Source: Ilumatobacteraceae bacterium (GTDB taxonomy: Bacteria; Actinomycetota; Acidimicrobiia; Acidimicrobiales; Ilumatobacteraceae). Taken from it: a stretch of 40,026 nt of DNA. The notes beneath the pieces were generated by a model that had not been told where the DNA came from, did no database searches, and was given only the letters and a program-made list of their open reading frames with translations. Below are positions 16,169 to 19,426 of this stretch, in pieces. Within the stretch, counting starts at the first letter, position 1; each line of letters starts with the position of its first letter. The stretch lies in NCBI GenBank assembly GCA_016463775.1, contig JAEMQQ010000011.1:1-40026 (forward strand), written 5' to 3'. The position numbers and the translations under genes were made by a program.

Positions 16169-17329
16169 TTGAGCGTCACTGAACACTTCGTCAGCGATGA
16201 TGCAGCCCTGGCCGACGTGGTGCGCGAAGCCCTATCTGCACCGCTGTATTCGCTGGACACCGAATTCCACCGTGAACGCACGTATTTCCCCCGGCTGGCA
16301 CTCGTGCAACTGCAGTGGGGCACGACGAATGTCTTGATCGACCCCCTTGCGGTTGACCCGCGCGGATTGGCCGATCTGTTGCGGGGTCCGGGTCTCGCAA
16401 TCTTGCATGCTTCGCAACAAGATCTGGAAGTCATGCGCTATGCGGTGGGCGAAGTTCCACGTCGCATGTTCGACACCCAACTTGCCGCCGGGTTCATCGG
16501 CTACTCAACACCGTCGTTGGCCTCTTTGGTGCAGTCGATGTTGAAGGTGATGCTCTCCAAGGGTGACCGTATGACCGACTGGATGCGCCGACCACTCACG
16601 GCCAGTCAATGTTCGTATGCGCGCAGCGACGTGGCATACCTCGAGCAACTGTTCGAACGCATCAGTGCGCGGCTGACTGAACTCGGTCGCGCCGAATGGG
16701 TCGCCGATGCATGCGAAGAGTTGCGCCAACGTCCGTGGGGAGAAAGCAACCCCGATGAAGCCTGGTTGCGAATCAAGGATGCACGGGCGTTGAAGGGCGA
16801 AGCGCGGGGTGTGGCCCAGGCCCTGGCCGCATGGCGGGAGCGCCGCGCAATGTCGACCAATGTGCCGTTACGCCGTGTGATGAGCGACATGGCACTTATC
16901 GGGATTGCGCAGGCAGCGCCGAAGTCGACCGAAGATTTGTCGCACGCCCGTGGCGTCGACGAGCGGTATCTCAACGGGTCGATCGCCCGCGAAGTTTTGG
17001 CGGCGGTGAAAGAGGGTCGGGAGCGCATCGTGGAGATCGAGTCGAATGGCCACGAGCCACTCGAAAAACGGCTCCGCCCGGCTGTCACGCTCGTGACCGC
17101 CTGGATCGGCGAACTGGCCCGCACCCACGACATCGACCCGACACTTGTTGCGACGAACCGCGACATCGTGGCGCTGTTGGCGGGTGCAGAATCGCGATTG
17201 GCGCACGGCTGGCGGCGTGATTTGGTCGGTCGCGATATAGAACGACTGCTCGCCGGTGAGACCGGCCTGTCTTTTGACGGTGACGGCAGGCTCAGGCTTA
17301 TCCCTGCCAAAGACTCAAACAGCGAGTAA
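16169..17329 (+). CDS. rnd: Ribonuclease D
   Basis: 386 aa from TTG 16169, preceded by AAGGTG 5 nt upstream; earlier codons in the frame lie within the rhodanese gene. A DEDD 3'-5' exonuclease with ExoI 'SLDTEFHRERTY' (D30, E32), ExoII 'LHASQQDLEVM' and ExoIII 'YARSDVAYLEQL' (Tyr and Asp). An HRDC domain follows ('ALAAWRERRAMSTNVPLRRVMSD...') and a second helical C-terminal part. It would trim 3' ends of stable RNAs. Confidence 0.92.
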   Translation: MSVTEHFVSDDAALADVVREALSAPLYSLDTEFHRERTYFPRLALVQLQWGTTNVLIDPLAVDPRGLADLLRGPGLAILHASQQDLEVMRYAVGEVPRRMFDTQLAAGFIGYSTPSLASLVQSMLKVMLSKGDRMTDWMRRPLTASQCSYARSDVAYLEQLFERISARLTELGRAEWVADACEELRQRPWGESNPDEAWLRIKDARALKGEARGVAQALAAWRERRAMSTNVPLRRVMSDMALIGIAQAAPKSTEDLSHARGVDERYLNGSIAREVLAAVKEGRERIVEIESNGHEPLEKRLRPAVTLVTAWIGELARTHDIDPTLVATNRDIVALLAGAESRLAHGWRRDLVGRDIERLLAGETGLSFDGDGRLRLIPAKDSNSE

Positions 17330-17338
17330 ACTCTTACC

Positions 17339-17399
17339 TAATGTCCATCGCCTAGGCGGATGACCCTCGTGGCTCCGCTAGTACAAACGGAGCCTTACA
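17339..17399 (+). promoter_or_regulatory. Structured leader with alternative hairpins hiding the ribosome-binding site
   Basis: Between the RNase D stop and the next start lie: TAATGT (17339-17344), a possible -10; hairpin A, CTAGGCGGA (17352-17360) pairing with TCCGCTAG (17374-17381), 8 bp with one bulged G; and hairpin B, GGCTCCG (17371-17377) pairing exactly with CGGAGCC (17388-17394). The arms share 17374-17377, so A and B cannot form together. B contains GGAG (17389-17392), the ribosome-binding site 7 nt before the GTG at 17400; A would free it. No U tract follows B, so it is not a terminator. ATG TCC ATC GCC TAG (17341-17355) could be a tiny upstream frame. Pairings are seen; the switching is inference. 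Confidence 0.5.
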
Positions 17400-17597
17400 G
17401 TGAAAAAAGGTCGTCATCGTCGGTTCGAAGAGGCGCGCAAATTGAAGCAATCCGGCCCCAGCGCCGCTGACCTCGGGTTTTCGGCCGAAAAGGTGGCCAA
17501 GGCTGAGCAGGATGAATTTGCCGAAATTGCCGAGCGCTATGGCGTGGTGTTCAACGATGATGGCGAAATTGCCGACGACGAAGGGTCGTCCAACTGA
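17400..17597 (+). CDS. Small charged protein of unknown function upstream of typA
   Basis: 65 aa from GTG. A basic start (KKGRHRRFEEARKLKQ) is followed by a short 'SAADLGFSAEKVAKAEQDEFAEIAERYGV' helical part and an acidic tail (DDGEIADDEGSS). No membrane segment or known motif is seen, and I do not recognise the family. The basic head might bind RNA or ribosomes, which would suit the TypA neighbour, but this is speculation. The start has GGAG at 7 nt, held within a 7-bp hairpin. Its TGA overlaps the apparent CTG start of typA, so both are probably translated together. Confidence 0.7.
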   Translation: MKKGRHRRFEEARKLKQSGPSAADLGFSAEKVAKAEQDEFAEIAERYGVVFNDDGEIADDEGSSN

Positions 17598-19426
17598 GCG
17601 ATCTCTTTCGCAACGTCGCGATTGTCGCGCACGTTGACCATGGCAAGACCACGTTGGTCGACGAATTGCTGCGGCAGACCGGAACCTTTGCTGCGCACCA
17701 ACATCTCGTAGAGCGCGTCATGGACTCCAACGACCAGGAACGCGAACGTGGTATCACGATCCTCGCCAAGGCCGCATCGATCGAGTGGCGGGGTGTCAAG
17801 ATCAACCTGGTCGACACGCCAGGTCACGCCGACTTCGGTGGTGAAGTAGAGCGTGCATTGGCGCTCGTTGATGGTGTGTTGTTGCTCGTCGATGCCGCCG
17901 AGGGCCCACTGCCGCAAACCCGCTACGTGTTATCCAAGGCACTTGCGGCCGACCTGCCCGTCGTGCTCGTGATCAACAAGGTGGATCGCAGCGATGCCCG
18001 CCCCGAGGAAGTGCTGCTCGATGTCGAACATCTTTTCTTGGATCTTGCGCATGCCGACCACCATTTGAACTTCCCGGTCATTTCTGCCGTCGCCCGCGAA
18101 GGCCGCGCGATGAAGGGTGTCGGAATGCCTGGTGCCGATGCCGACCTGGTGCCGCTCCTCGATGCCATCCTCGACACGATTCCCGCCCCGCAGGGCGACG
18201 CGGCTGCACCGTTGCAGGCCCTCGTCACCAACCTCGATGCGAGTGATTACCTCGGTCGCTTGGCGATCGGGCGTGTGCACGCCGGCACCCTGCGCAAAGG
18301 TGACACGATTGCCCTGCTCGGCAAGCCCGAGGGCGACACCCAGCCGATGGTGAAGCGCAAGATCTCGCATCTCTCGCAGTTCACCGGCATCAGTCGCACC
18401 GAAGTTTCCACGATCGTCGCCGGCGATTTGTTCATCGTCGCCGGCATCGACGACGTGAACGTCGGCGACACGCTGGCCAACGTTGAAGCCGCCGTCGCGC
18501 TACCTCGTCTCGAAGTGGACGAGCCGGTCTTGCGGATGAGTTTCGCCGTCAACTCTTCGCCGTTCTCTGGCCGCGAGGGCACGTACGTAACGAGCCGACA
18601 CCTGCGTGACCGTCTGTACCGCGAGATTCTTGGCAACGTCTCGATTCGTCTGTACGACACCGAGTCACCCGACATTATCGAAGTCGCGGGTCGTGGCGAG
18701 TTGCAACTTGCGGTGTTGATCGAAAACATGCGCCGCGAGGGCTACGAAATGCAGGTAAGCCGCCCGCAAGTCATCACCAAAGAGGTCAACGGCAAGACGC
18801 ACGAGCCATATGAACGCGGCACGGTCGACGTGCCCGATGAATTCGTCGGTGCGGTCACCCAGGCAATCGCCCCGCGTCGCGGTCGCATCGTCGACATGCG
18901 AACCGGTGATTCCGGTCGCACGATCATGCATTTTTCTGCACCATCACGCGGGCTCATCGGGTTCCGCTCGCTGTTGCTCACCGTTACCCGCGGCACCGCA
19001 CTCATTCACCAGAGTTTCGCCGGTTTCGAACCTTGGGCGGGCGACGTGCCGCATCGTCTCGGTGGGGCGATGATCGCCGACCGCATTGGACCAGTCACCG
19101 CCTATGCGCTCGACAACCTGCAGATGCGCGGAACGTTGTTCGTCGAGCCAGGCAACGAGGTCTACGAGGGCATGGTGGTGGGCGAGTGCGCCCGTGGCGA
19201 AGAGATGGTCGTGAACGCGGTTCGGGCGAAGGAAAAGAACAACATCCGCACGCACAGCCATGACGACGGCGTCAAGTTGGCCGCCCCGGTCATCCACTCG
19301 CTGGAGACAGCGATCGAGTGGATTGGCGACGACGAACTCGTGGAAGTGACACCCAAGTCGGTGCGTATCCGCAAGCGTTGGCTGAGCATCGAAGATCGCC
19401 GACGGTCGAACAAAAAAGGCGGTTGA
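17594..19426 (+). CDS. typA: Ribosome-associated GTPase TypA/BipA, apparent CTG start
   Basis: 610 aa. The frame is closed by TGA at 17558-17560, and before the P-loop it contains no ATG, GTG or TTG. The only reasonable initiator is CTG 17594, with GAAGGG about 8 nt upstream; the first ATG (before the typical start of the GTP site has passed) would delete the P-loop. From CTG the protein begins MSDLFRNVAIVAHVDHGKTT, aligning with known BipA N-termini. G motifs: AHVDHGKT, DTPGHADFGGEVERAL and NKVDRSD. Domains II, III, V and the BipA C-terminal domain ('NNIRTHSHDDGVKL...') follow. TypA aids 50S assembly and stress or cold adaptation. Confidence 0.93.
   Translation: MSDLFRNVAIVAHVDHGKTTLVDELLRQTGTFAAHQHLVERVMDSNDQERERGITILAKAASIEWRGVKINLVDTPGHADFGGEVERALALVDGVLLLVDAAEGPLPQTRYVLSKALAADLPVVLVINKVDRSDARPEEVLLDVEHLFLDLAHADHHLNFPVISAVAREGRAMKGVGMPGADADLVPLLDAILDTIPAPQGDAAAPLQALVTNLDASDYLGRLAIGRVHAGTLRKGDTIALLGKPEGDTQPMVKRKISHLSQFTGISRTEVSTIVAGDLFIVAGIDDVNVGDTLANVEAAVALPRLEVDEPVLRMSFAVNSSPFSGREGTYVTSRHLRDRLYREILGNVSIRLYDTESPDIIEVAGRGELQLAVLIENMRREGYEMQVSRPQVITKEVNGKTHEPYERGTVDVPDEFVGAVTQAIAPRRGRIVDMRTGDSGRTIMHFSAPSRGLIGFRSLLLTVTRGTALIHQSFAGFEPWAGDVPHRLGGAMIADRIGPVTAYALDNLQMRGTLFVEPGNEVYEGMVVGECARGEEMVVNAVRAKEKNNIRTHSHDDGVKLAAPVIHSLETAIEWIGDDELVEVTPKSVRIRKRWLSIEDRRRSNKKGG

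Follow-up and report, generated by a model that had tools for sequence, protein, structure and literature searches.

What regulates the small gene that lies between rnd and typA in the genome examined here, a freshwater-type member of the Ilumatobacteraceae, a family of freshwater and marine actinobacteria? The window, by which we mean the whole stretch of 40,026 nucleotides that was analysed, carries a short leader in front of this gene. The initial annotation had described two mutually exclusive hairpins in the leader and a tiny reading frame at the foot of one of them, and had proposed a switch in front of a small gene/typA operon. We compared the leader with its relatives across the family and beyond, and the comparison points to the tiny reading frame as its central element.

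Layout of the leader

Direct reading of the sequence confirmed the pairings of both hairpins, the bases that they share, the position of the Shine-Dalgarno (SD) sequence, and the tiny frame, hereafter the uORF. The features of the locus are as follows:

ends at 17329: stop codon of rnd, overlapped by the -10-like hexamer
17327 to 17332, forward strand: -10-like hexamer TAAACT; TANNNT is kept upstream of the uORF ATG in relatives
17341 to 17355, forward strand: four-codon uORF, ATG TCC ATC GCC TAG (M-S-I-A-stop), probably leaderless
17352 to 17381, forward strand: hairpin A, in which 17352-17360 (CTAGGCGGA) pairs with 17374-17381 (TCCGCTAG), with one bulged G
17371 to 17394, forward strand: hairpin B, in which GGCTCCG (17371-17377) pairs exactly with CGGAGCC (17388-17394), burying the SD
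17389 to 17392, forward strand: SD of the small gene, GGAG, 7 nt upstream of the GTG at 17400
17400 to 17597, forward strand: small gene, 65 aa, N-terminus MKKGRHRRFEEAR, no known family
17594 to 19426, forward strand: typA (BipA), with Pfam GTP_EFTU and BipA_C; probable start CTG at 17594-17596

The 5' arm of hairpin A includes the stop codon of the uORF, and bases 17374-17377 are common to both hairpins. That hairpin B buries the SD, as had been claimed, is borne out by the location of the GGAG within its 3' arm. A simple scan found no intrinsic terminator and no sigma-70 consensus promoter at the leader. A terminator-like hairpin with a T-rich tail was seen at 17252-17266, inside the end of rnd; 0.7 such occurrences would be expected by chance.

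Conservation of a four-codon reading frame

The leaders compared were those of the small gene at 110 loci of the family, spread over 23 genera, at 20 loci in other families of the order, and at 80 named loci. An arrangement consisting of TANNNT, 8 nt, ATG, three codons, and a stop was observed in 77 of the 110 family loci, representing 16 of the 23 sampled genera, and in none of the 20 leaders from outside Ilumatobacteraceae. With the named loci included, the uORF occurs in 30 distinct versions encoding 27 peptides (among them MSIA, MSTL, MSVL, MLFL, MFIH, and MSNH) and ends in TAG, TAA, or TGA. No signature of an amino-acid-responsive attenuator was found, in that no residue after the methionine is common to all 30 distinct uORFs. 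On a small-gene tree built on about 200 nt, codons 2, 3, and 4 changed 11, 21, and 15 times, respectively. The fifth codon, in aligned rows opening with ATG or TTG, changed only to TAA or TGA, apart from one change to CAG, seen in a single pair of related loci (L234, L235), where a TGA stands directly behind it; the raw count of nine codon-5 changes also takes in rows with non-homologous frames. Column entropy was 0-0.2 bit over the ATG, 0-0.6 over the stop, and 0.35-1.6 at internal positions. As judged from these alignments, the uORF is the most conserved part of the leader, and throughout the family its start, length, and stop bear a signature of selection that its peptide lacks.

The arrangement is also close to unique. 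A search for TANNNTN8ATGN9TAG returned one match in the whole genome of the window, namely this leader, and a tighter pattern applied to 115 genomes returned 40 matches, 35 of them at this leader (a hand count, with one match placed by sequence alone). Within 440 kb from two family genomes, the sole mini-uORFs of this layout before genes were the two copies of this locus.

Since the four-codon form is absent from 7 of the 23 sampled genera (g2, g3, g12, g13, g16, g22, and g25) and even genera that have it include a few loci with a decayed start (CTG, ATA, or CCG), the uORF is dispensable. Other forms were seen among these leaders. In genus g12 (L124, L168) all that is left of the uORF, at an unchanged position, is ATG TAA. 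An alternative leader with no four-codon uORF was seen in genus g25 and in named relatives of that genus (L026, L029, L030, L035, L190-L192, and L199-L207); it has (G)TTGT near the expected 5' end, followed by a GGCAC-type hairpin, and in L029 and L030 a 15-codon TTG frame ends overlapping the start of the small gene.

A spacing signature of probable leaderless initiation

The distance from TANNNT to the ATG is exactly 8 nt in 76 of the 77 uORF loci and 9 nt in the other. For comparison, the occurrence of TANNNT upstream of candidate gene starts in the 440 kb from two family genomes peaks at 6-8 nt, with 37 cases in the peak versus 0-3 at each other distance. In these genomes a spacing of 6-8 nt is the signature by which leaderless genes are recognized, and the spacing at the uORF matches it. 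With the -10 element 8 nt upstream of the AUG, the mRNA most likely begins at the AUG or within a nucleotide or two of it; the mini reading frame would then probably stand right at the 5' terminus of the transcript. Given the -10 element and its spacing from the uORF, a transcript start downstream of 17371 appears unlikely.

Access to the Shine-Dalgarno sequence

In nearly all family loci the GGAG starts 10-12 nt upstream of the start codon. In most genera the stop codon of the uORF lies 15-19 nt upstream of the small-gene start codon, and the SD, as GGGAG, is able to pair with CUCUC in uORF codons 3-4. The SD was more paired than in shuffled leaders among the 16 uORF genera (Wilcoxon p = 8e-5, in a test that treats related genera as independent and in which the genus of the window gives the strongest values); in the other families its pairing was not above that of shuffles (p 0.45). 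Several genera pair the SD with CUCUC only weakly, the unpaired probability being 0.3-0.5. When the uORF was covered, predicted SD accessibility in the short-leader genera went up to 0.56-0.78. The genus of the window (g1) and genera g4 and g6 have longer leaders, which place 40-49 nt between the uORF stop and the start codon, a distance that is far for direct reinitiation. A separate start-codon hairpin (GCCCU with AGGG, codons 4-6) was considered and rejected, its pairing not being above that of shuffled spacers (p 0.14 for the family, p 0.88 for other families).

We favor the reading, with a probability of about 0.62, that the mini-uORF of this leader is leaderless and that ribosomes, by way of it, govern how accessible the SD of the small gene is. 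The leader would have its own promoter, with the mRNA starting at or near the uORF AUG. Ribosomes (70S) would load at this 5' AUG in the leaderless manner, read the four codons, and terminate beside the SD, thereby setting access to it. In short leaders, a ribosome on the uORF would break the lock formed by GGGAG and CUCUC, and termination so near to the start codon would place the ribosome for a handover. The simplest reading of the short leaders is a helper role by unlocking and handover; ribosomes on the uORF and on the SD probably cannot fit together, however, so that competition between them is possible.

Some of the same observations could be met if the AUG were a mere mark for ribosome binding at the 5' end, stabilizing the mRNA or recruiting ribosomes, with the reading of codons irrelevant. 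In Escherichia coli, 40% of ptrB expression is restored when the start is followed at once by a stop (PMC4965119), and minigenes can protect mRNA (PMC8708949); the ATG TAA of genus g12 would be in keeping with such a mark. The retention of a stop at codon 5 through interchange of TAG, TAA, and TGA, however, together with the TGA that follows at once where TAG became CAG, speaks against a mere mark, and we consider the binding-mark explanation unlikely.

Stability and conservation of the hairpins

The initial annotation had interpreted hairpins A and B as a translational switch, and had raised temperature, a ligand, or the ribosome as what it might sense. As a single sequence, the leader of the window folds unexceptionally when compared with shuffles (z -1.3), and its SD is more buried than in 98% of them. 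At 37 °C, the predicted energies of A and B were -7.7 and -12.7 kcal/mol, placing B ahead by 5; at 4 °C, they were -12.9 and -20.5 kcal/mol. Hairpin B was also more stable than A at 15 and 25 °C, with the gap wider at lower temperature. Since B beats A at every temperature computed between 4 and 37 °C, the two never cross over, and an equilibrium or temperature switch was not supported: B always wins and A can form only transiently. A two-state switch or RNA thermometer was rejected, the fold energies being neither comparable nor crossing with temperature. No Rfam family, riboswitches and RNA thermometers included, matched the window at the gathering threshold or the leader at E<=1.

In stepwise folding, the prediction was A only while the nascent RNA measured ~38-50 nt from the AUG, a span of ~12 nt, and B from ~53 nt onward. 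When the first 24 nt were covered, as by a ribosome at the uORF stop, A was lost from the prediction and B remained intact. The earlier suggestion that a ribosome on the tiny frame could favor B thus gains backing from the model, with the ribosome predicted to cover the 5' arm of A and to leave B in place.

Hairpin A is genuine, as strong covariation shows in the sister genera g4 and g6. There its homologue lies directly 3' of the uORF stop, with 96% of cells paired and four pairs changed on both sides, and its covariation score was matched by 0 of 500 shuffles. Within the genus of the window, variation is too sparse for a covariation signal: A varies by one-sided or breaking changes only, some members having lost pairs of its outer CTAG helix, and B is invariant in 10 distinct leaders. 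Genera g4 and g6 have a weaker stem over the SD that is compatible with A, and the two hairpins coexist in g4 and in most of g6, mostly without competing. The 3' arm of A is the arm that buries the SD only in the genus of the window and, by inspection, in a single odd locus of g6; in most genera with the uORF, the stretch from stop to SD holds neither hairpin. Mutual exclusivity of A and B is essentially confined to the genus of the window: of what had been flagged, the conservation of A holds up in the sister genera and the exclusivity is mostly not kept in g4 and g6. The flagged hairpins are a lineage-specific addition and could form at most in passing while the RNA is being transcribed.

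A switch between A and B, chosen by temperature, ligand, or ribosome and controlling the small gene and typA as an operon, is in our assessment quite improbable. Its geometry is exact, the predicted order of nascent folding provides for both states, and coverage of 24 nt by a ribosome abolishes A and leaves B. The energetic lead of B from 4 to 37 °C, the coexistence of the two hairpins in g4 and most of g6, the lack of an Rfam match to window or leader, and the broken CTAG helix of A all speak against it. Under the preferred reading, in which the uORF governs access to the SD, the genus of the window and its two sisters would have added hairpins to the stretch that separates the uORF from the SD, with A immediately 3' of the stop and B, or a B-like stem, across the SD. 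With A only transient and prevented from forming by a ribosome at the stop, the uORF in the genus of the window may be a brake, not a helper; its geometry favors the role of brake.

That AUGUC...UAG is instead a non-coding signal (an initially transcribed region or a protein site) that resembles an ORF would account for the near-constant T at position 4 and predominant C at position 12, for the long identical stretches shared among leaders of related genera, and for locus L081, where ATG became ATA and the stop is still present, but it is very doubtful given that the stop, where it changes, is nearly always replaced by another stop, that the nine internal positions vary over 30 distinct versions, and that the motif is found nowhere else in the genome.

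The small gene, its neighbors, and the start of typA

The small gene was present in 172 of 200 family genomes and in all 27 genera; among 119 genomes sampled across the phylum, it turned up only in the class Acidimicrobiia. Named carriers include Desertimonas flava and Ilumatobacter assemblies, relatives on which the placement of the window in the family rests. Four further records that carry it (L184, L204, L205, and L242) are titled Bifidobacterium breve or Myxococcales, titles that look wrong. The N-terminus of the small protein, MKKGRHRRFEEAR, is invariant in the aligned set and its tail is acidic; the protein had no Pfam or NCBIfam match and no convincing PDB match. Several genera have no typA downstream of the small gene and a different neighbor upstream of it, and the leader is still there. 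Because the neighbors change while the leader stays, the leader belongs to the small gene and not to typA, which the initial annotation had taken as a target.

In the genus of the window, typA may be linked to the leader by its overlap with the small gene. There a CTG overlaps the stop of the small gene as CTGA in every readable locus (10 of 11 loci plus six named copies, some of them from the same genomes). In all of these loci typA has no in-frame ATG, GTG, or TTG upstream of the P-loop; in the window, the first canonical start, at 17654, is past the P-loop lysine. The 5' end of typA was compared over 17594-17660 and in relatives L015-L023, L025-L043, L174, and L175. None of the 12 g4 loci that were read has a canonical start; 11 of the 12 offer nothing but ATT or ATC, preceded by CCC or CCA, at the homologous N-terminus, with ATC in two loci, and L043 reads CTG ATT. 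In all other genera examined a canonical start is present. The simplest reading of these sequences is a CUG start for typA in g1 and an AUU or AUC start in g4. A frameshift fusion with the small gene is a rival for g1, but one that fits poorly with the stops in g4.

A more speculative extension, which we hold to be improbable, is that the uORF acts as a sensor of leaderless initiation that sets the level of the small protein and, through the CTGA overlap in this genus, of the ribosomal GTPase TypA from its non-canonical start. If so, a single operon would sense the state of the initiation machinery twice in succession.

Relation to known systems

We found no earlier description of this leader in the literature (open papers). 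Its closest counterparts combine an AUG at the 5' end with a gene led by an SD. A 5'-terminal AUG on SD-led mRNAs can control 30S binding at the SD; in E. coli ptrB, most 30S binding at the SD-led start disappears when this AUG is lost (PMC4965119). As the leader described here probably does, ptrB, rcnR, and others have an AUG at the 5' end, together with a short leader and an SD-led gene downstream. The E. coli cases differ in that their uORFs are of 5-26 aa and occur gene by gene in one species, and that of ptrB overlaps its gene (PMC4965119), whereas here a fixed four-codon frame precedes one gene family-wide.

Among actinobacteria, leaderless uORFs are found upstream of genes in mycobacteria (PMC4633059; reviewed in PMC9031893) and resemble this one in standing before a gene, with a proposed role in cis by ribosome delivery (PMC4633059). 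The polycysteine attenuators of mycobacteria (Canestrari et al. 2020, as presented in PMC9031893 and PMC9094748) belong to the same comparison. Relative to the mycobacterial uORFs and attenuators as portrayed in those accounts, the frame here has four codons only, no conserved amino acid to be sensed, and no end in an RTGA overlap. Leader minigenes of two or six codons at axe-txe, ler, and esp (PMC8708949) are likewise tiny ORFs with an effect in cis on the gene that follows; those of axe-txe and esp are described as using their own ribosome-binding site, whereas no SD precedes the uORF here, which we infer to be leaderless. Finally, in a synthetic leaderless bicistronic design for Corynebacterium glutamicum, translation of a leaderless fore-cistron supports an SD-led second cistron (PMC10367133). 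That design was engineered; the leader of the Ilumatobacteraceae looks like its counterpart in nature, on a very short scale.

Gene finders do not see leaderless uORFs as short as this. In this family, short leaders, hairpin leaders, decayed starts, and losses together constitute a natural series of variants, and the leader offers a test case for the effect of leaderless initiation at the 5' end on an SD-led gene a few nucleotides away.
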